This document shows positions 5,015 through 30,446 of a stretch of DNA of 31,517 nt, piece by piece; the stretch's first letter is position 1; the number at the start of each line of letters is the position of its first letter. This DNA is from a virus, in the IMG/VR virus record IMGVR_UViG_3300045004_000245, positions 1 through 31,517 of that record, one strand, 5' to 3'. The notes beneath the pieces were generated by a model, which ran no database searches, had not been told where the DNA came from, and saw only the letters and a list, made by a program, of their open reading frames with translations. Position numbers and translations under genes: made by a program.

Positions 5015-5289
5015 AAATGCCCGCAGGAGCGAGATCACTTCAAGCGCGAAGAAGGCCGGGCGCTACCGACGCCCAGCCTCTTCATGCTTTCGGCCAGGAG
5101 GGTAGCTGCCCTCTGGCTGTGCGGCGCCGCCAAGCGGCCCCAAGTCTCGGCCGAACCTGGGTTCAGCCGCTCTGCCCGACGGAACACCCCCGCCGAGATA
5201 CCTGCTTCAATCGCCAAGACCACGCCTTCATCGACCTCCTCGGCGCCCACGGCGTCTCTCTGCTCCCCGTCATCGAGCGCAAGCAATGA
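5011..5289 (+). CDS. Hypothetical protein coupled on both sides (92 aa)
   Basis: Predicted 92 residues from the ATG at 5011. Both ends overlap neighbours by ATGA (with the Cro-like gene at 5011-5014 and with the next gene at 5286-5289), which is the main reason to call it. The second half (DHAFIDLLGAHGVSLLPVIERK) has strongly GC-biased third positions. The first half is arginine- and glutamine-rich and unconvincing, so the true start could be further in. An antisense frame (5035-5307, 90 residues) also reads as plausible protein and is the main rival. No family recognised. Confidence 0.5.
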   Translation: MKMPAGARSLQARRRPGATDAQPLHAFGQEGSCPLAVRRRQAAPSLGRTWVQPLCPTEHPRRDTCFNRQDHAFIDLLGAHGVSLLPVIERKQ

Positions 5290-5699
5290 CGACGATGGAG
5301 CAAACATTCATGGGCGCCGAAACCCAAGACAGTGGAACGGTTGTGTGCCTTGCGCGCGCGATCACTGCCCGGCTGCAGCGGAGCTACCCCCACCACACAG
5401 CGAAGTACGTGGCTCGCGACCTGGGCTGCACGCCGAAGGCTGCCGCGAACCTGCTCGATGGACACCTCAGCACCCCCAGCATGGGGCGGCTGATCCGGGC
5501 GTATGGCGCCGGCTGGGTCGCGGAGCGTGTCCTCGAGGCCGCTGGGCACACCCTAGAGACCTACATCGATCACCAGGCCGCGGAAGCTGAACGCGCCGCC
5601 GCCAGAGCCAGGGAGCGGGCGCGAGACGCCCGAAGCCGAGTTGAGAAGTATCAAGCTGCTCGCGGCGGCAATCCTGGCCGGGCTGGCGCGCAGCCTTAG
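5286..5699 (+). CDS. Putative HTH early regulator (CII-position)
   Basis: A 137-residue protein. Residues about 35-60 (YVARDLGCTPKAAANLLDGH) read as a helix-turn-helix; then a hydrophobic patch (GWVAERVLEAAGHTLETYI) and a long basic and acidic helix of Ala, Glu and Arg that is probably a coiled coil. The position, just after the Cro-like gene and before the replication genes, is where lambda-like phages place CII-type activators or replication-initiation adaptors. It is coupled to the preceding gene through ATGA. The regulator assignment comes from the HTH look and the position only. Confidence 0.7.
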   Translation: MTTMEQTFMGAETQDSGTVVCLARAITARLQRSYPHHTAKYVARDLGCTPKAAANLLDGHLSTPSMGRLIRAYGAGWVAERVLEAAGHTLETYIDHQAAEAERAAARARERARDARSRVEKYQAARGGNPGRAGAQP

Positions 5700-5787: not shown

Positions 5788-6034
5788 GGTCGTCGACATC
5801 TCGGCTCGGCGCCATGCCCACGAGCGCGCGGCCGTCGCCGAGGCGGAAGACAAAGCCTATCGCGTTATCCTGGCCGCGGGCGAGGCCCTTGAGCCGACCT
5901 ACGGCATGGATGCCAGCGAGTGCGTCCTGCTCGTGGCGATGGACCTGATCGAGAAGCGCCTCGGTAAGGCCGTGCTCCGTGATGCTCTGCTCGGCCACGC
6001 CTCGTGCATCTCAGACGACCCGGAGGCGGCATGA
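5780..6034 (+). CDS. Hypothetical early protein (84 aa)
   Basis: An 84-residue, mostly helical acidic protein (MAEVVDISARRHAHERAAV opening). I prefer the ATG at 5780 over the one at 5765 because it gives the MAEVVDISAR start seen in many small phage proteins. The TGA overlaps the primase start (ATGA, 6031-6034), so the two are probably co-translated. No domain recognised. It could be a replication accessory factor because of the coupling, but this is guilt by association. Confidence 0.7.
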   Translation: MAEVVDISARRHAHERAAVAEAEDKAYRVILAAGEALEPTYGMDASECVLLVAMDLIEKRLGKAVLRDALLGHASCISDDPEAA

Positions 6035-6939
6035 ACGACCTCCGTGAGATCGTGCGTCGAGTGGGAGGCGAGATCTACGCTGGCGGCCGGGCCGCCGTCG
6101 TGCCCGGGCCCGGGCATTCCAAAAACGATCGGTCACTGAGCCTGCGGATCACCGAGACGGGCCGGATGATCTTCCACAGCCATGCCGCCGATGGCGTGGC
6201 CGACTGCATGAAATACCTCGGCTTGGAAACGAGCGAGGCCAAGCCGGCTGACAAAGCCGAGTGGGCGCGCATGAAGCGCGCGCGCGAGGAAGAGCAGCGC
6301 CAGCGTGCGGCTGAGGACGAAGCCTTCTGCGCCAGCATCTGGCGGGATACCGTCGCCTTCGAGGGAAGCCTCGCCGAAGCCTACCTTTGGTCGCGCGGCC
6401 TGATCCTGGAAGGCTGCAGCGATATCCGCTTCCACCCGGCAGCCCCGAGAGCCAAGCCGCGCCCCGCGGGAGATGATCGGCCTCTGCCGACTCCACATCC
6501 CGCCATGGTCGCGATCGTTCGCGACCGAGACGGCCGGCCCCTCGGTCTGCACCTGACCTATGTTGCGATCGACGGCACCGGCAAGGCGTTCGGGAAGCGC
6601 TCCCGGCTGATGTTCGGGGCGATCCGTGGCGGCGCCGTCCAGCTCTCTCCCGCCGGCTCCAGCCTGGCGATCGGTGAGGGCATCGAGACGTGCCTCGCCT
6701 ACCAGACCCGCACTGGCATCCCCGCCTGGGCGGCTCTGGCGACATCGCAGTACGCTACATTCCTGCCGCCGAAGCGCGTGCGCCGTCTGGTGATCGCCGC
6801 CGACGGCGATCAGGGAGGTCTGACCGCTGCGAAGGGACTTGCCGAGCGCATGGCCCGCATCTGCGACGTGGTGATCGACGCGGCGCCGGAGGGACAGGAT
6901 TGGGCCGACGTACACGCTGAGGGAGGCTCCAATGTCTGA
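6031..6939 (+). CDS. TOPRIM-domain phage DNA primase
   Basis: A 302-residue primase expected to lay down RNA primers for phage replication. The N-terminal third (GPGHSKNDRSLSL, 26-38, and FHSHAADG, 48-55) has the layout of the DnaG-type zinc-binding domain, but the cysteines are replaced, so metal binding is probably lost. The C-terminal TOPRIM fold is intact: Glu216 in IGEGIET, and Asp258/Asp260 in AADGD. This layout is common in alphaproteobacterial prophages. The gene starts on the ATGA of the preceding gene and its end overlaps the ATPase gene by 8 bases; primase and ATPase probably work as a pair. Confidence 0.9.
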   Translation: MNDLREIVRRVGGEIYAGGRAAVVPGPGHSKNDRSLSLRITETGRMIFHSHAADGVADCMKYLGLETSEAKPADKAEWARMKRAREEEQRQRAAEDEAFCASIWRDTVAFEGSLAEAYLWSRGLILEGCSDIRFHPAAPRAKPRPAGDDRPLPTPHPAMVAIVRDRDGRPLGLHLTYVAIDGTGKAFGKRSRLMFGAIRGGAVQLSPAGSSLAIGEGIETCLAYQTRTGIPAWAALATSQYATFLPPKRVRRLVIAADGDQGGLTAAKGLAERMARICDVVIDAAPEGQDWADVHAEGGSNV

Positions 6940-8080
6940 AGCCTTCGGCGGCCCGACCCTCGTGTTCTCCAGGACCAGCAAATTCACCTTCGAGTCCTAC
7001 GACGAGGTCTCGCCCTCCACCAAGCCGTGGCTGGTCAAGAACGCGCTCCCCATGAAGGGCGTGGCGTGGATCGCTGGGGCGTCCGGCGCGGCGAAGACCT
7101 TCTTCGCAATCGACGGCCTGGCGAAGATTGCGGGCGGCGCAGCGGAAATCTGGGGACGACGCGCTCAACAGAGAGGCGTGGTCTACGTGGCGGCCGAAGA
7201 TCCAGACGGCTGCCGGGCTCGTCTGAAGGCCTTTCGCGCCACCAAAGGCGCCAGGGCTGCCCAGGAAGGCAAGCGCCTCCCCTTCAAGCTCGTGCCCCAG
7301 GTGGTGAACTTGCTGGAGGAAGGCGACGTCGAAGACTTCGTCCGCAGCACGCTCGCCATCGCCGAGGAGTTTGAGGCGCAGGGCACACCGCTGGGCGTGG
7401 TCTGCTTCGACACCTTCAGCGTCTGCATCCCAGGCACGGACGAGAATAACAGCGCCGACATGAGCCGGGCGCTGGAGGCTCTCTACGCCATCTCGCGCGA
7501 GCTGGACTGCCTGGTCGTCGTGGTCGCGCACTTCGGGAAGTCCGGCACGTCTGGCGGGATCCGAGGCTGGTCAGGCCTCGGCTACAACGCCGACGGCGTC
7601 ATCGTCATCGAGCGCGACGAGGAAGACCCCGAGCTGCGCCACGTCACCTTCCAGAAGGTCAAGAACGGCGCTTCGGGCGGCCGGTTGGACTTCAGCTTGG
7701 ATGAGGTGCCGCTCGGCATGATCGACGACGCGGGCGACGCCATGACCTCGTGCGTCGTCCGGTTCGCCCCGGCGCTCAGGGAGCCCTTCAAGCGGCGAGC
7801 CGGGCCTGAAACGAAGCCTGGCCCGAAGCTGGTCCTGAAGGCCATGAACCAACTTCTGGACGTGGGACAAACCTATGTTGTCCCGCCCCTGCCCGGTGTC
7901 CCACCTAACACCGCAGGCGTGCTTCGCTCGAAGCTCAAGGATCGCGCGTACGCCATTGGCTATGGCGACGACGAAGAGAAGTCAGAGACCCGAAAGCGTA
8001 ATTTTAACAGAGACGTACAGGCGCTCCTCGCCGCCAACGTTCTTCGGGAATTTGAGGGGATCGTATGGAAAATCCGATGA
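6932..8080 (+). CDS. RepA/DnaB-like RecA-fold ATPase (replicative helicase type)
   Basis: A 382-residue protein with a RecA-type ATPase core. The Walker A motif is GASGAAKT at 49-56, with Lys55 expected to bind ATP, and the Walker B-like strand is GVVCFDTF at about residue 155. This matches the AAA_25/RepA-type hexameric helicase family encoded after primase genes in phages and plasmids. The C-terminal 90 residues look like a small winged-helix domain. It overlaps the primase gene upstream and the nuclease gene downstream (ATGA, 8077-8080). Three GGGACA/TGTCCC motifs lie inside its 3' part (7864-7902), just before the main repeat array. Confidence 0.85.
   Translation: MSEAFGGPTLVFSRTSKFTFESYDEVSPSTKPWLVKNALPMKGVAWIAGASGAAKTFFAIDGLAKIAGGAAEIWGRRAQQRGVVYVAAEDPDGCRARLKAFRATKGARAAQEGKRLPFKLVPQVVNLLEEGDVEDFVRSTLAIAEEFEAQGTPLGVVCFDTFSVCIPGTDENNSADMSRALEALYAISRELDCLVVVVAHFGKSGTSGGIRGWSGLGYNADGVIVIERDEEDPELRHVTFQKVKNGASGGRLDFSLDEVPLGMIDDAGDAMTSCVVRFAPALREPFKRRAGPETKPGPKLVLKAMNQLLDVGQTYVVPPLPGVPPNTAGVLRSKLKDRAYAIGYGDDEEKSETRKRNFNRDVQALLAANVLREFEGIVWKIR
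7864..7902. repeat. Outlying GGGACA/TGTCCC motifs
   Basis: Three copies of the 6-mer inside the ATPase gene: GGGACA at 7864-7869 and TGTCCC at 7879-7884 and 7897-7902. The first pair forms a short inverted repeat. They use the same motif as the dense array at 8101-8328 and may be part of the same origin region. Confidence 0.6.
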
Positions 8081-8778
8081 CCTCACCGGCTGAGTTTGCC
8101 GGGACAAAGCTGTCCCGCCCCCCAAAGCGGGACAACCGGGACAAGTGGGACAAAAACGGTTTGTCCCGCCTGTTTTCGGCCCTCGCCCCTAGGGGCGGCG
8201 CTGCCGGGACAGGTGGGACAACCGGGACAAAACCAATTTGTCCCGCTTGCTCCCCTAGGGGGCTCCAGCGGTGGGACAGGCGGGACAAGAAGGGGTCCCC
8301 CCTAAAGGGGGACACCCCTCTCTGTCCCGTCCCCCTGCCCCGCCGTGGCCCTGACCGGGCGTCCCGGTGGGGAATGTTCGCCACTGCCTTCGCGTTCGTG
8401 GCGAGCCCAGCCTTCGCCGACCCCTGCAAGGCCATCCCCGACAAGGGCCCTATGCCTGCCTACCTGGCGGCTGGTCGCACCATCGCGGGACCGGTCACCT
8501 ACGTCGGCGATGGCGACAGCCTCTGCGTCGCTGTGGGCAAGACGCCCGACCAATGGGTCGAGGTCCGCCTCGCCGATTTCTACGCCCCCGAGCTCAGCGA
8601 GCCCGGTGGCAAGGCGGCGAAGCGAGCGCTGGAACGGATAGCGCTAGGTGAGCGGCTCGTTTGCGTGGCTGGCCGCCGCACCTGGGATCGCGTGGCAGCC
8701 ACCTGCACGCTTCGCGGCGTGCCGGTGGCCGCTCTCATGCGCCGCGCTGGCGTCGTGGAAGGAGGGAACGGCAGATGA
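8077..8778 (+). CDS. Staphylococcal-nuclease-like (SNase) protein with repeat-encoded N-terminus
   Basis: The frame from the ATGA-coupled ATG at 8077 gives 233 residues. The first ~95 are low-complexity sequence encoded by the GGGACA array (RDNRDKWDKN, GTGGTTGTK). The last ~105 form an SNase-like domain: YVGDGDSLCV, then VRLADFYAPE with the likely catalytic Arg and Glu, GKAAKRALERI, and TWDRVA with the second Arg. An internal ATG at 8374 starts MFATAFAFVASPAFA/DPC, which reads as a signal peptide and would give a 134-residue exported nuclease. I think either start may be used. The domain is typical of small secreted or phage nucleases acting on DNA or RNA. The TGA overlaps the next start (ATGA, 8775-8778). 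Confidence 0.75.
   Translation: MTSPAEFAGTKLSRPPKRDNRDKWDKNGLSRLFSALAPRGGAAGTGGTTGTKPICPACSPRGLQRWDRRDKKGSPLKGDTPLCPVPLPRRGPDRASRWGMFATAFAFVASPAFADPCKAIPDKGPMPAYLAAGRTIAGPVTYVGDGDSLCVAVGKTPDQWVEVRLADFYAPELSEPGGKAAKRALERIALGERLVCVAGRRTWDRVAATCTLRGVPVAALMRRAGVVEGGNGR
8101..8328. repeat. GGGACA iteron array with CCCCTAGGGG palindromes: candidate replication origin
   Basis: Fourteen copies of a 6-mer in 228 bases. GGGACA occurs at 8101, 8129, 8138, 8147, 8206, 8215, 8224, 8273, 8282 and 8309; TGTCCC at 8111, 8162, 8239 and 8323. Runs of two or three copies are spaced exactly 9 bases apart. A module repeats about three times: direct-repeat run, then TTGTCCCGC, then a palindrome. The palindromes are GCCCCTAGGGGC (8185-8196), CCCCTAGGGG (8252-8261) and the imperfect CCCCCTAAAGGGGG (8298-8311). 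The array lies next to primase and helicase genes, where an iteron origin would be expected. The origin role is inferred. Confidence 0.7.
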
Positions 8779-9284
8779 GCGAACTCCGCATACTTCGCTC
8801 GATGCCTGGCATCGCCGAACTGGAGGCGCGTCTGTCGCGGATTAGCGCACATCCTTACCCGAGCTGGGCCCCCGAGGCGGAGGGCCTACAAGATGCTGTC
8901 GACCAGATTTCTCGCCAGCTTTTCGGCTTCACCGAAGACGAAACCTACTTCGTCTTCAGCGTCGAGGAGCACAAGGACCTGACAGAGGAGCAGCTCAGCG
9001 CAGCCCTTGACGCTCACGAACAGCACTTCCGTTTTCTCATCGAGGACGGAGAGGAAGCAGACCGGGCCGCGGAGATCATTCTCCAAGCCATGGGTTGGGA
9101 CGTCACCGATGGTGACGGCGGATACCTGCGTTCATTCGACAAGTTTGGGCGACAGATCGTGGCCGTCGCCAAGGGCCTGGTCGCACATCATCCGGACCGT
9201 CTTCTGGAAGAGGACGAGGCCGCCAGCCTCGAAGCCCGCCTTCGCGCCGAAGCATCCAACTTCCGCCCCCGCCGCAAGCACTGA
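8775..9284 (+). CDS. Hypothetical acidic protein (169 aa)
   Basis: A 169-residue acidic soluble protein (start MSELRILRSMPGIAELEARL). Charged helices carry many Glu/Asp (VEEHKDLTEEQLSAALDAHE) and the C-terminal part contains GYLRSFDKFGRQIV. It begins on the ATGA of the nuclease gene, so the two are likely co-translated. There is no catalytic motif, signal peptide or membrane segment. I do not recognise it. Placement at the end of the replication module suggests an early accessory role only. Confidence 0.75.
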   Translation: MSELRILRSMPGIAELEARLSRISAHPYPSWAPEAEGLQDAVDQISRQLFGFTEDETYFVFSVEEHKDLTEEQLSAALDAHEQHFRFLIEDGEEADRAAEIILQAMGWDVTDGDGGYLRSFDKFGRQIVAVAKGLVAHHPDRLLEEDEAASLEARLRAEASNFRPRRKH

Positions 9285-12334: not shown

Positions 12335-13655
12335 GGTCAGCTTTCCCCGCGCCTTCCAGTTCCTGTGGGCAGAGAAGGCGGAAGATGGCATGCCGGTCCG
12401 CTACCGGGCCGCGTACGGCGGCCGGGGATCGGCGAAGTCGCACAGCTTCTGCTCGGCGGCGATCATCAAGGGCGCCCAGCGTCCGCTTCGCGTCGGCGTC
12501 TACCGCGAGATCCAGAAGTCGATCCGCGACAGCGCCAAACGCCTGCTGGACGACAAGATCGCCGAGAACGGCCTGAGCGACTTCTACGAGAGCACGGACA
12601 CGGAGATCAGGGGCAGGAACGGCACGGTGTTCCTGTTCAACGGACTGCGGACCAACCCCGACGCCATCAAGTCCACCGAGGGCCTGGACCTCGCCATCGT
12701 CATGGAGGCGAACAAGGTCGCCCAGCGCTCCTGGGACCTCCTGATCCCGACCGTGCGCAAGCCCGGGTCGGAGATCTGGGCGGAGTGGAACCCGGGCCAG
12801 CCCACCGATCCGGTGGACGTGATGTTCCGCGGCAAAGACGGCCCTCCGCCGGGCAGCATCGTTCGCCAGGTCAACTACACCGACAACCCGTTCTTTCCCG
12901 ACGTGCTGCGGCAGGAGGCCGAGTACGACCTTCGCCGCGATCCCGAGCGCTACAACCACGTCTGGCTGGGCGGCTACGAGACGAACAGCGAGGCGCGCGT
13001 CTTCCGCAACTGGCGGGTCGAGGACTTCGAGACGCCGGCCGACGCGGTGCTGCGCTTCGGCGCCGACTGGGGGTTCAGCATCGATCCGACCGTGCTCATC
13101 CGGATGCACGTCATCGGCCGCACGCTCTACATCGACCAGGAAGCCTACAAGATCGGGTGCGAGATCGACGAGACGCCGGCGCTATTCGCGGGGGACTGCC
13201 CTCCGAGCGTCCCCGAAGACCAGCGCTGGCAGAACCCGCACAAGCACCCGGGTATCAAGGGCGCGCTGCGCTGGACGATCACCGCGGACAGCGCCCGGCC
13301 TGAGACGGTGTCATACATGAAGCGCAAGGGCTTCCGGATCGTCCCGGCCATCAAGGGCCCGGGCTCGCTTGAGGACGGCATCGAGTTCCTGCGGACCTTC
13401 GACATCGTCGTCCATCCGCGCTGCAAGCACACGATCGAGGAGCTGACGCTCTACTCGTGGAAGACCGACCCGCTGACGGGCGAGATCCTCCCGGTGCTGG
13501 CGGACAAGGACAACCACCTGATCGACGCGGCCCGCTACGGCCTGGAGGCCCTTCGCCGCGGTGGCGCCAAGGCCAAGGCGCCGCCACCGCCAGCGAAACG
13601 CCGTGACTACGTGGGCCGGGACAGGGGAGGCGACAGCGAATGGCAAGCAGCGTAG
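12327..13655 (+). CDS. terL: Terminase large subunit
   Basis: ATP-driven DNA-packaging motor with nuclease. From the ATG at 12390 (421 residues) Walker A would be GGRGSAKS at residues 10-17, leaving almost no N-terminus. The codons upstream encode VEVSFPRAFQFLWAEK, which looks like the normal start of the family, and the frame is open back to a CTG at 12327 that overlaps the small subunit gene. No ATG, GTG or TTG is available there, so I propose a CTG start or reinitiation. The C-terminal RNase-H-like nuclease is clear: GADWGFSIDP, DSARPETVSYM, KGPGSLEDGI and HLIDAARYGLE. The end overlaps the portal gene by 16 bases. Confidence 0.9.
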   Translation: MVEVSFPRAFQFLWAEKAEDGMPVRYRAAYGGRGSAKSHSFCSAAIIKGAQRPLRVGVYREIQKSIRDSAKRLLDDKIAENGLSDFYESTDTEIRGRNGTVFLFNGLRTNPDAIKSTEGLDLAIVMEANKVAQRSWDLLIPTVRKPGSEIWAEWNPGQPTDPVDVMFRGKDGPPPGSIVRQVNYTDNPFFPDVLRQEAEYDLRRDPERYNHVWLGGYETNSEARVFRNWRVEDFETPADAVLRFGADWGFSIDPTVLIRMHVIGRTLYIDQEAYKIGCEIDETPALFAGDCPPSVPEDQRWQNPHKHPGIKGALRWTITADSARPETVSYMKRKGFRIVPAIKGPGSLEDGIEFLRTFDIVVHPRCKHTIEELTLYSWKTDPLTGEILPVLADKDNHLIDAARYGLEALRRGGAKAKAPPPPAKRRDYVGRDRGGDSEWQAA

Positions 13656-20926: not shown

Positions 20927-22003
20927 ATGGGTCTTTTGAAGGGGCTTCTCTCTGCCGGCGGCGCCGTCGTGGGCGGCATGGTTGGTGGCCCGGCAGGCGC
21001 GAAGATCGGTGCGTCGATCGGCGGTGCTGCCGGCGGCGCCCTCAGCTCGTCCGGCGGATCGAAGAAGGCGACCCAGGCGCAGCTTGATGCCATCCGGGAA
21101 GGCCGCCAGATCGCCGGTCAGGCCTATCAAGACGTCCGGGACATCCAGTCGCCATACACCGGCCTAGGTGGAGACTCAGCGAACGCTCTGACCGCGCGCC
21201 TGGGCGTCTCTCCGACCAGCCTGCCGGTTTCGAACATCGGCGGCGGAAACGCCCTGACCGCAGGATCGGCTGGCGCCGCGCCCTCCGGCTCTGGACCGCT
21301 GCCGCAATCGGGAACCAGCCCTGGAACCTACGGCACGACGGCGAACCCGAGCGCGCCTACCCCTTATGCGTCGCCGGAGGCGCCCGGCGGCTTCAACTTC
21401 GACACCGAGGCGGCGCTCAATTCGCCGATCCTGCAAGCCGCCCTGGAGCGCGGCGCGGGTGTCATCCAATCGAGCGCCGCTGCGAAGGGCGCTCTCAATA
21501 GCGGCGCCACGCTGAAAGCGTTGAACGACTTCGGCGTCCGCACGACATACGATTTCCTGAACGATGAGCGGGACTTCGCCTATGGCGTGAACCGCGACCA
21601 GCGCACGGACTTCAACACCGACCGCGGCTTCGGTTATGGCCTGAGCCGAGACGCCCGCGCGGACTACCAGGACGACCGCGGCTATCTCACCGGACGCTTC
21701 GACCGGGGCACGGATGACCTCTTCCGTGGCGTTTCGGTTGGGCAGGGCGCAGCGAATACGGTCAGCAACGCTGCCAGCCGCTACGGCGACCAAGCGGTAG
21801 GGCTCGTGCGAGATGCAGGCGACGCCCGTGCCACCAACGCGCTGACGCAAGGCCAGATCGGATCGGGTTTCGCGACCGGCCTTGGCGGGATGCTGAGCTC
21901 GCTCGTGGGCGGCAGTGGTGGCGTCAGCCGGGCTGCCGACATCAGCGGTCTTGGCCAGGCGAACTACGGCAACTCGCTGCGCATGCCGAGCGTGAGGTAC
22001 TGA
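20927..22003 (+). CDS. Internal virion / DNA-ejection protein with glycine-zipper N-terminus
   Basis: A 358-residue protein. Residues 1-45 are a Gly/Ala-rich hydrophobic helix (GGAVVGGMVGGPAGAKIGAS), a glycine-zipper pattern that suits insertion into a membrane. The centre is Ser/Pro/Gly-rich and probably flexible, and the rest repeats RDxxxDFN-type segments (NRDQRTDFNTDRGFGYG). In short-tailed phages such proteins are stored in the head and injected to build a channel across the cell envelope. The stop overlaps the transglycosylase gene (TGATG). Role inferred. Confidence 0.75.
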   Translation: MGLLKGLLSAGGAVVGGMVGGPAGAKIGASIGGAAGGALSSSGGSKKATQAQLDAIREGRQIAGQAYQDVRDIQSPYTGLGGDSANALTARLGVSPTSLPVSNIGGGNALTAGSAGAAPSGSGPLPQSGTSPGTYGTTANPSAPTPYASPEAPGGFNFDTEAALNSPILQAALERGAGVIQSSAAAKGALNSGATLKALNDFGVRTTYDFLNDERDFAYGVNRDQRTDFNTDRGFGYGLSRDARADYQDDRGYLTGRFDRGTDDLFRGVSVGQGAANTVSNAASRYGDQAVGLVRDAGDARATNALTQGQIGSGFATGLGGMLSSLVGGSGGVSRAADISGLGQANYGNSLRMPSVRY

Positions 22004-28027: not shown

Positions 28028-29581
28028 ATGCATCTCTCCCTCGCGCCGTACCTTTCGGGTGGCCTCGCTAGCCCGGGCGGGGGTGGTCCGCCACCGGGCC
28101 CGACGCCGTACGAGGGCATGGCGTCGAACGTCATGCTCGGGAACACCGTCGCCAACCTCCCGCAGTCGAGCGGGTGGAAGCTGTTCGTCCGTGAGGTGTT
28201 CGTCGCGGTCGAGGACATCACCCACATCCGCATGGGGATCATGTCGCAGGGCATCGGGCGCGACGGCCTGGTGGGCCCCACGTCCTCGTCCAGTCTCACG
28301 TGGACGTCAGTCGCCATCGAGTGGTCTGAGAGCGGCCTTGGACCGAGCAACCCGCAGAACACCACGGGCCATCCAACGCACCTTTTCAGCTTCGATGGCA
28401 GCCAGTCCAAGAGCGGCGTCGGCTACAGGGACGTCACGATATCCGACGAGCTGGAGCTACCTTTCACGATCCCGGCAGGCAGCAGCTACGCGGTGTGGGG
28501 CCATGCCACGCTTGGGGTAGGATCGACCGGTAACGGCGTCCCCTATCGGGCCAACACTCGAGAACCTGGCGACTTCTACGCCGCCTATAACAGCGCCACG
28601 AGCGACACGGTGGCGATCGGGACCGTCCCGAACTTCTCAGGCGCCACGCACAAGCCGTGCTGTTTCTTCCCGATCAACACGCGCCGCACTGGGGACAGCT
28701 TGATCGGCGTGGGTGACAGCCACTTCCACGCCAACATCGAGCTGAACCGCCAGCACAATTACCAGCGCCACGGCTTCTTCAAGCAAGTGCCGATGGACGA
28801 CACCGCCCTTATCGTCTTTGGCATCAAGGGCATCGCGGCGGTCACAGGCGGCGCCGGAAGTTGGCGCACGCAAAGCCAGTTCTGGAAGCTGCTCCAGTAC
28901 GCGTCGGCGTTCTTCTGCAACCTCGGATACAATGAGGATAGCCTGAACGCCGCCTACCGGACGGAGATGAACTATCTGGCCTCGCTGGCGACGCGGGCCA
29001 CGAAGAAGTTCATCTTCACCATCGGTCCGAGCGTCGGCTACAGCATGGCCCACAAAGGCTGGACGCAGGTTGCGGGCCAGTCCGCCAGCGCCTCTTGGGC
29101 TACGAAGCAGGACGCGTTCAACGAGACCTACGCCCGGCCCCTGCATCCGGACGTCGGCAACTACACCCACTGCATGGACTGGGCGCTGGCTCTGTGTCCG
29201 CTGGGCACCGGTCGTTCGGGCCTGTTGAAAGTCTCGGCTGTGGGCCAGGAACTGGCGCTGAGCTTCGCCCTCGCCTCCAACACCATGACGGCGGTCGGCG
29301 CGGGGTTCACCGCGGCGCTGGACGAGTACGGCTATAACTACAGCACGGCGGCCGTAGGCAGTCCGCTGACCGCACACAGCTGGGTCGGCGCAGTCACCTC
29401 TGCAGACACCTTCACCCAACAGTCCGGCAACTCCGCAGCGGACGCGTCTGGGAGCCCTGGGGTGCTGCACGTCGGGGTCTATACGAAGGACGGTCTGCAC
29501 ATAACGCAGCCCATGCACGACCTTGAAGTCATCCCGGCGCTGGGCCTTGACGATCCCGCCACCTGGGCGCGGGCGGCCTAG
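28028..29581 (+). CDS. Large SGNH-type hydrolase / tail spike (517 aa)
   Basis: A 517-residue protein from the ATG at 28028 (a GTG at 28022 is possible). The first ~220 residues are beta-rich with a Gly/Pro linker (GGLASPGGGGPPPGPTP). From about residue 225 an SGNH-like domain begins: GDSHFH with likely nucleophile Ser231, and Asp488-Gly-Leu-His491 in KDGLHIT near the end, completing the triad. The insertion between these blocks is long. It is a second, unrelated-looking esterase beside the 206-residue one. By place it should be a tail spike acting on the cell-surface polymer. The stop overlaps the PEP-CTERM gene's stop by four bases. Confidence 0.75.
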   Translation: MHLSLAPYLSGGLASPGGGGPPPGPTPYEGMASNVMLGNTVANLPQSSGWKLFVREVFVAVEDITHIRMGIMSQGIGRDGLVGPTSSSSLTWTSVAIEWSESGLGPSNPQNTTGHPTHLFSFDGSQSKSGVGYRDVTISDELELPFTIPAGSSYAVWGHATLGVGSTGNGVPYRANTREPGDFYAAYNSATSDTVAIGTVPNFSGATHKPCCFFPINTRRTGDSLIGVGDSHFHANIELNRQHNYQRHGFFKQVPMDDTALIVFGIKGIAAVTGGAGSWRTQSQFWKLLQYASAFFCNLGYNEDSLNAAYRTEMNYLASLATRATKKFIFTIGPSVGYSMAHKGWTQVAGQSASASWATKQDAFNETYARPLHPDVGNYTHCMDWALALCPLGTGRSGLLKVSAVGQELALSFALASNTMTAVGAGFTAALDEYGYNYSTAAVGSPLTAHSWVGAVTSADTFTQQSGNSAADASGSPGVLHVGVYTKDGLHITQPMHDLEVIPALGLDDPATWARAA

Positions 29582-30174
29582 GCGTGACTCGCGCGCCGTC
29601 GGCGAAGCACGGACCCGGCGAACCCGAAACCTCCGATCATGAGCGCCCAAGTCGAAGGTTCAGGGACAGCCATGAACTCCCCGATGCCGCGGAACGTCAC
29701 GAAGTCTACCGCCTGCTCATCGTCTGGGCGGCTCGCGACGATCGTAAGGCGACCATAGTACGGGAGAGGTCCCCACAGGACCTTTCCTTGCACGGGGGCA
29801 ACTGTAGCCTGCTTCACAGCGATGCGGACGCCGCGGCGGCCACTTAAGATGCTCAAGAACGGGCCGCCGCTAGATCCAGAGTAACCTCCGCAGCCTTCAG
29901 CTCCGGAAGCTTCTATGTTGCACCAGGAGTAGTAGCCGAAGTTATTCGTATTGATGGGATCCTGCTCAACAAGCCAGTCGTCCTCTCGGACGAACTCGAG
30001 TGAGTGGATCTTCGTGCCCGGCAACAGCTCAATGTGTAGTGAGTAGTCTGTTGTGGGTTCTGGAGAATTGATCCAGGACCACTCCAACGGCGTGTACGTG
30101 CGGGTAACTGCGCTCGCAGCAGGCGCGGCCACGCAGGCGATAAGAGCGGCAGCAGCCGCAGCGATCCAGCGCAT
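29578..30174 (-). CDS. PEP-CTERM sorting-domain protein
   Basis: A 198-residue exported protein. A signal peptide (residues 1-22, ending AAPAASA) precedes a mature domain with four cysteines. The C-terminus at 171-198 has the full sorting signal: PEPSTWALM, a Gly/Phe-rich membrane stretch (GGFGFAGSVL) and RRRR. The start at 30174 is chosen because it places the signal peptide at the N-terminus. Exosortase (EpsH) systems process such proteins at the envelope, often linked to exopolysaccharide. The host must supply the exosortase; none is in this window. The stop overlaps the large SGNH gene tail to tail. The role of the mature domain is unknown. Confidence 0.85.
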   Translation of the reverse strand: MRWIAAAAAALIACVAAPAASAVTRTYTPLEWSWINSPEPTTDYSLHIELLPGTKIHSLEFVREDDWLVEQDPINTNNFGYYSWCNIEASGAEGCGGYSGSSGGPFLSILSGRRGVRIAVKQATVAPVQGKVLWGPLPYYGRLTIVASRPDDEQAVDFVTFRGIGEFMAVPEPSTWALMIGGFGFAGSVLRRRRASHA

Positions 30175-30385
30175 TGAAAACCCCCGATTGTGTTGCGGAA
30201 GATCACAAGCAGTTAAGGTTACCTCGTCAAGCGGTCTCGCCGGCTTGATTACCCACATTGGGTGCCCTGCAATCGGAGCCACAAGGCACATGCTGGGATG
30301 CTCGCCGACTACCTGCCGGCTGGTAGTGGCGACGGCGGGGGTGGCCGCAGGTTCATCCTGATCCTCGCGGAACAGTCGAGCTGTG

Positions 30386-30413
30386 CGTGGTTGCGGTCGA
30401 AACGCAACCCACG
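30386..30413. other. Hairpin upstream of the beta-helix gene
   Basis: A 10-bp stem with a one-base bulge (CGTGGTTGCG / CGCAACCCACG) and a GTCGAAA loop, ending 33 bases before the beta-helix start codon. No T-run follows. It may be a leader structure or weak terminator. The rest of 30175-30446 holds no recognisable gene. Confidence 0.4.
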
Positions 30414-30446
30414 GGTGACGGCCACGCATTTCACGGAGACACCCCC

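Follow-up and report, generated by a model that had tools for sequence, protein, structure and literature searches.

A repeat array past the stop of a phage helicase gene

The window, by which we mean the whole stretch of DNA analysed (31,517 nucleotides), is a 31.5-kb virus contig that encodes an integrase, a terminase and a portal protein (Pfam/PHROG). It holds further structural-type genes, which make the element a tailed phage or prophage, and because of these it lacks the satellite character of a PICI and is not filed as one. In its replication operon a primase gene is followed by a helicase gene, and copies of the 6-mer GGGACA on both strands cluster past the helicase stop codon. The features of the locus are these, with the palindromes read from the sequence:

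6004-6939, plus strand: Toprim/DUF7146 primase, upstream gene of the replication operon (Pfam/PHROG)
6932-8080, plus strand: RepA-fold (AAA_25) helicase of 382 aa, the proposed initiator (Pfam AAA_25, E=7e-32)
7808-8080, plus strand: predicted C-terminal winged-helix domain of the helicase, about aa 293-382, the proposed iteron reader (AlphaFold2)
7864-7902: three outlying copies within the helicase gene (7864+, 7879-, 7897-)
8081-8373, no strand assigned: proposed origin region, intergenic
8101-8328, no strand assigned: main iteron array, 14 GGGACA copies on both strands (exact count)
8101-8116, no strand assigned: leading inverted copy pair (8101+, 8111-)
8129-8167: module 1, three direct copies at 9-bp pitch and an inverted copy 15 bp on (8129+, 8138+, 8147+, 8162-)
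about 8184-8197: palindrome CGCCCCTAGGGGCG, centred on CCTAGG, between modules 1 and 2
8206-8244: module 2, identical in geometry to module 1 (8206+, 8215+, 8224+, 8239-)
about 8252-8261: palindrome CCCCTAGGGG, centred on CCTAGG, after module 2
8273-8328: module 3, degenerate or partial (8273+, 8282+, 8309+, 8323-)
8374-8778, plus strand: gene after the array, likely start ATG 8374, with a signal-peptide-like N terminus

An exact count gives 17 copies of GGGACA or TGTCCC between 7864 and 8328, 14 of them within the 228 bp from 8101 to 8328. The whole window holds 26, and shuffled sequence has a mean of 17 per 31.5 kb, so that about 0.12 would be expected in 228 bp; our recount thus agrees with the first-pass annotation, which had given the same numbers and a chance expectation below one. 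GGGACA is the most clustered 6-mer in the window, the next unrelated 6-mer reaching 7 against its 14 per 228 bp, and in Markov-1 resamples the maximum was 3 for GGGACA and 8 for any 6-mer. Most copies extend to the unit YGGGACAR.

Start-to-start spacings along the array are 15, 18, 204, 10, 18, 9, 9, 15, 44, 9, 9, 15, 34, 9, 27 and 14. The module described earlier as repeated about three times at 9-base pitch resolves into two perfect copies of a +++- arrangement (spacings 9, 9, 15), followed by a degenerate third. The two identical modules lie 77 bp apart, and multiple short iterons are in this way arranged in two sets. The 15-bp inverted geometry is also found at the outlying pair 7864/7879, and because it recurs there with a different spacer sequence, it would fit a pair of protein-binding sites whose distance is fixed.

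The array had been placed inside coding sequence. This holds for the three copies at 7864, 7879 and 7897 and not for the other 14, which lie between the helicase stop at 8080 and the likely next start, the first of them 21 bp past the stop and hence 3' of the helicase gene. The open frame that spans the array has a GC content of 0.63/0.68/0.73 by codon position; that of the helicase gene is 0.65/0.46/0.82. ATG 8374 is likely a better start for the next gene than this array-spanning frame. Since 14 copies fall past the stop, the codon-position composition is not that of a gene and a start is available at ATG 8374, we regard the array as mainly intergenic. The gene from 8374 to 8778 had been called a nuclease; it has no Pfam or PHROG match, and the name is at most provisional.

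Two compositional signals were sought in the window. GC skew, a check suggested with the original origin proposal, shows neither an origin signal nor an inflection at the array. An AT-rich spacer between the iteron sets is absent, AT content between the modules being 0.24-0.44 against a window mean of 0.34; the nearest rise in AT, at 7975-8099, precedes the main array, and in relatives the spacer is AT-rich.

Arrays beside helicase genes in other phages

BLAST with the window array returned only short, chance-level matches, so iteron arrays of this kind are invisible to ordinary similarity search. A query of three GGGACA at 9-bp pitch matched at least 119 stretches in IMG/VR and at least 118 in genome contigs, and many of those listed are one-strand tandem repeats. 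Among the matches listed, 55 of 76 both-strand arrays lie at the 3' end of a replication helicase gene and 0 of 76 at a 5' end, with a median distance of 19 bp from the helicase stop, and one-strand arrays are near a helicase 3' end in 5 of 46 cases; the helicase profiles behind the 55 of 76 were built partly from the same loci, and the orientation and one-strand contrasts serve as internal controls. Pfam independently assigns the array-adjacent helicases to AAA_25, VapE, DUF5906/D5, DUF927 and DUF3987. GGGACA is thus found with several helicase families, which may reflect convergence among many addresses or exchange of C-terminal domains. The arrays are followed by small genes and by terminases that belong to several unrelated types, and besides the helicase no protein type recurs beside most array loci.

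Some further observations came from this sample. The one-strand GGGACA tandem arrays (L125-L242) occur in cyanobacteria, actinobacteria and planctomycetes, mostly away from helicases, and are a different kind of repeat. The pattern GGACAGNNN was rejected as a clean control, as it matched additional both-strand arrays beside helicases; these are sister iteron classes. At three loci (L001:3150-3560, L028:5870-6180 and L303:260-720) the spacer that separates the inverted triplets is not AT-rich but a long run in which purines and pyrimidines alternate (GTGTGTGCGCGCG type); it may be Z-DNA-like or easy to strain.

A sample free of selection on the motif was obtained by fetching AAA_25 and VapE helicases through their protein sequences; after thinning to less than 70% identity 69 loci remained, and the most repeated 6-mer was sought in the 500 bp around each stop. 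(With the window helicase as sole query, IMG/VR yielded no relative, and family alignments were needed; an alignment of D5-type helicases proved too divergent for searching.) At least six copies of one 6-mer surround the helicase stop in 64% of these 69 non-redundant loci, against 7% within the gene, 10% at 900-1400 bp past the stop and 0% in dinucleotide shuffles; for at least eight copies the figures are 45%, 1%, 0% and 0%. About a third of the 69 have no array of at least six copies around the stop. The arrays found in this way have a pitch mode of 9 bp. Those of at least six copies use both strands in 43 of 44 cases, start at a median of 28 bp past the stop, and have a largest internal spacer that is AT-rich relative to the locus (44 arrays, Wilcoxon p=1e-5).

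The repeat itself varies from phage to phage (GTTGCA, GGTGCA, CGAACA, CCCACA, GCTTCA, GGAACA, GGTACA, CGGACC, GGGACA and others), and position, pitch and both-strand layout are kept. Conservation in relatives, which had been proposed as a check on the array, therefore extends to its position and layout and not to its sequence. Because the repeats of the helicase-first sample differ between phages, GGGACA is, as far as sequence can tell, one address class of a general layout. The idea that all arrays share a GGACA core, recognised by a common factor, was rejected on the same sample, where GGACA is one class among many.

A CA/TG step is present in 39 of the 44 iteron consensus units, often at the unit end, while the rest of the unit varies; it occurs in 28 of 71 best 6-mers within genes, the comparison set. 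Among the 12 eight-copy arrays of the AAA_25 loci L350-L429, five (L412, L356, L370, L371 and L361) have the strand order +++-++--. A strand pattern common to different iterons suggests a fixed protein arrangement.

The closest full-length relative of the window helicase, L512 (34% identity over residues 18-374), was found among 299 genomes of the order around a Brevundimonas locus, and eight CGAACA on both strands lie directly past its helicase stop. In the cultured Rhizobium phage 16-3 (DQ500118, L530:3063-3440), 15 GTGACA (CGTGACA) iterons extend from 4 bp before to about 355 bp past the stop of the RecA-family ATPase gene p101, and the annotation of DQ500118 marks neither an origin nor a repeat there. 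The +++- module of phage 16-3 aligns with module 1 of the window, and the two differ at the same base, G versus T, in all four units; a single reader imposing a single sequence would be expected to produce such concerted change. Arrays of 13 copies also follow the helicase stop in Alteromonas phage PB15 and Rhizobium phage RHph_N65; Caulobacter phage GB2A and Gordonia phage Trine have none there. In the open-licence literature we found no description of the phage 16-3 array and nothing relevant on GGGACA or TGTCCC iterons.

The helicase C-terminal domain as candidate reader

By Pfam AAA_25 and by Foldseek, whose best match to the ATPase domain is RSF1010 RepA (E 1e-10, TM by target 0.7), the window protein has the core of a RecA-fold hexameric helicase. 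AlphaFold2 predicts a C-terminal domain (aa 296-382 in the model), set off by a low-confidence linker that precedes it, with the order helix-strand-helix-helix-strand-strand (H-E-H-H-E-E) at a pLDDT of about 90, which is the winged-helix order. Among its PDB matches are many winged helices, those of MCM, Rpa2, CRP and the pCW3 relaxosome accessory protein included; the matches are weak, with a best E of 0.08.

If this domain reads the array, its sequence and that of the iterons should change together, and 33 AAA_25 helicases with arrays allow the comparison. Iteron similarity is correlated with similarity of the C-terminal domain when the ATPase core is controlled (partial r 0.29, Mantel p 0.001) and not with the core when the C-terminus is controlled (0.08, p 0.21); the effect is modest, and Mantel tests leave part of the phylogeny in. 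Rank statistics for iteron and C-terminus give 0.16 (p 0.014), or 0.25 (p 0.014) for arrays of at least eight copies, and the covariation holds when any one locus is left out. Among pairs with similar cores, those with similar C-termini have similar iterons (median 0.62 vs 0.39, p 1e-4). The array is probably read by the adjacent helicase itself, through its predicted C-terminal winged helix. The first-pass annotation had offered the HTH protein at 5286-5699 and the acidic protein at 8775-9284 among its candidates for binding, and neither finds support as reader, because only the helicase recurs beside most array loci.

A probable PICI-like origin in a tailed phage

We consider it likely that the array is the replication origin of the phage, similar to those of PICI and SaPI elements and read by the C-terminal winged helix of the helicase. 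The array had been named a candidate origin on first inspection, and that part of the claim gains from the recurrence of its position and architecture in many phages and from the PICI and SCC precedents; the part that set it inside coding sequence does not stand. As we picture it, an iteron origin directly follows the gene that encodes its initiator, an arrangement shared with PICI/SaPI islands, and the initiator would be the neighbouring RepA-fold helicase (6932-8080). Its C-terminal domain would bind YGGGACAR iterons on both strands, and because it does so, two helicase rings would be brought to the DNA in opposite orientations. Local melting could then let the rings load, and the adjacent Toprim primase would start synthesis. 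From the analogous SaPI Rep, SCC Cch2 and PICI origins we infer the binding, melting, ring loading and origin activity.

Phage P4 alpha is a phage-type replication protein that reads iterons itself (ori/crr); it differs in being one fused primase-helicase-binding protein of another helicase family. The RSF1010 RepA system uses a separate initiator, and by analogy this counts against the helicase as initiator, RSF1010 RepA being its solved structural relative. RSF1010 RepA (PDB 1g8y, 1nlf, 1olo) shares the helicase fold with the window protein; its chain has 279 aa, whereas the window helicase has 382 aa with an extra, predicted C-terminal winged helix.

PICI origins lie immediately 3' of rep and contain two iteron sets (PMC6092414, where P4 alpha is mentioned too, with its cognate ori site), and in 2018 this layout was described as unique to PICIs. 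The window resembles the PICI/SaPI rep-ori in that the putative origin directly follows the initiator-helicase gene on its 3' side, the short iterons form sets, and initiator and primase are adjacent or fused. Unlike these islands, it is a tailed-phage genome with a RepA-fold (AAA_25) helicase and a different iteron, and it is without an AT-rich spacer between the sets. (A region of E. coli CFT073 considered as a source of PICI iterons was rejected, as it is a lambda-like prophage.) For binding by the C-terminal domain there are precedents: SaPI Rep recognises iterons just downstream of its own gene in this way (PMC7581432), and so does Cch2 of SCCmec (PMC7581432). Cch2 is like the window in having iterons directly past the helicase gene and a separate primase, and the C-terminal binding itself is that of Cch2 (PMC7581432); it differs in being a D5-type helicase with three AAGTG iterons, whereas the window has a RecA-fold helicase and 17 both-strand copies. 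For pRN1 ORF904, the essential origin region lies in the 166 bp that follow the gene of the replication protein, and the authors propose a winged-helix contact (PMC4234260), although that origin is a 100-nt stem-loop with no iterons identified and the window has an iteron array. The architecture is thus already known as the PICI-type origin, and what is new is that it occurs in a tailed phage and with a helicase of RepA fold. Also new is the sequence evidence for wide use by phages with interchangeable addresses.

Other explanations of the array have to be set against an origin read by its own helicase. The array could be an origin whose iterons are read by another protein of phage or host, such as DnaA or the HTH protein at 5286-5699, and to which the helicase is only recruited. 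RSF1010-type RepA helicases do work with a separate initiator and the HTH-like protein is 2.4 kb upstream, but small protein clusters do not recur across array loci as helicases do and the iteron sequence follows the helicase C-terminus, and we think this reading unlikely. The same covariation argues against a packaging or regulatory site (pac/cos or an operator) that owes its place between the replication and packaging modules to the accident of gene order. Terminase genes do lie within a few kb downstream in many loci, with a terminase-type gene at 12390 in the window; they are, however, of several unrelated types and variable in distance, whereas the distance to the helicase stop is fixed (median 19 bp among the matches listed), which makes a packaging or regulatory role highly improbable.

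It is also very unlikely, in our judgement, that the array works as RNA or single-stranded DNA, with hairpins of inverted copies terminating transcription of the helicase operon or presenting priming sites as in pRN1, which requires a stem-loop downstream of its replication gene (PMC4234260). The predicted fold is very strong (z -8.25) and includes one terminator-like hairpin on the plus strand (8145-8169), but this z-score is not independent evidence, because any strand with inverted repeats will fold well; hairpins leave the direct copies at 9-bp pitch unexplained, and the window has no Rfam match to a known RNA family. Given the strong fold, an additional hairpin or terminator role is possible. 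We give almost no weight to low-complexity coding repeats that drifted by slippage and have no function as DNA. A 9-bp pitch does equal three codons, and repeats of that sort exist, as shown by the one-strand GGGACA arrays that are rarely near helicases (5 of 46 among the matches listed); yet slippage accounts poorly for copies on both strands, two identical modules, a codon-position composition unlike that of genes and a fixed position in many phages.

Beyond an origin read by the window's own helicase, one may ask whether tailed phages with at least five helicase families share one modular origin, in which the array past the stop serves as a private address and the helicase reads it with its own C-terminal domain, address and domain changing together. 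We put this forward tentatively, as plausible rather than probable. If it is true, origin and specificity would be predictable from sequence, and RepA-fold helicases would be self-targeting initiators. Judging by these data, the layout is common among tailed phages and occurs with several types of helicase. Most prophages and metagenomic phages have unannotated replication origins, and in a large share of them origin and reader could be located from sequence alone if the proposal is right; a specificity code between winged-helix domains and iterons of 6-9 bp could then be tested across many natural pairs.

Two other parts of the window drew our attention. A 358-aa gene (20927-22003) contains a two-copy tandem repeat of 54 bp with 75% matches at 21574-21683. 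On the minus strand, 29578-30429 encodes a predicted protein with a terminal PEP-CTERM-like sorting signal (VPEPSTWALMIGGFGFAG...RRR), which is odd for a phage contig and is perhaps host DNA or a moron.
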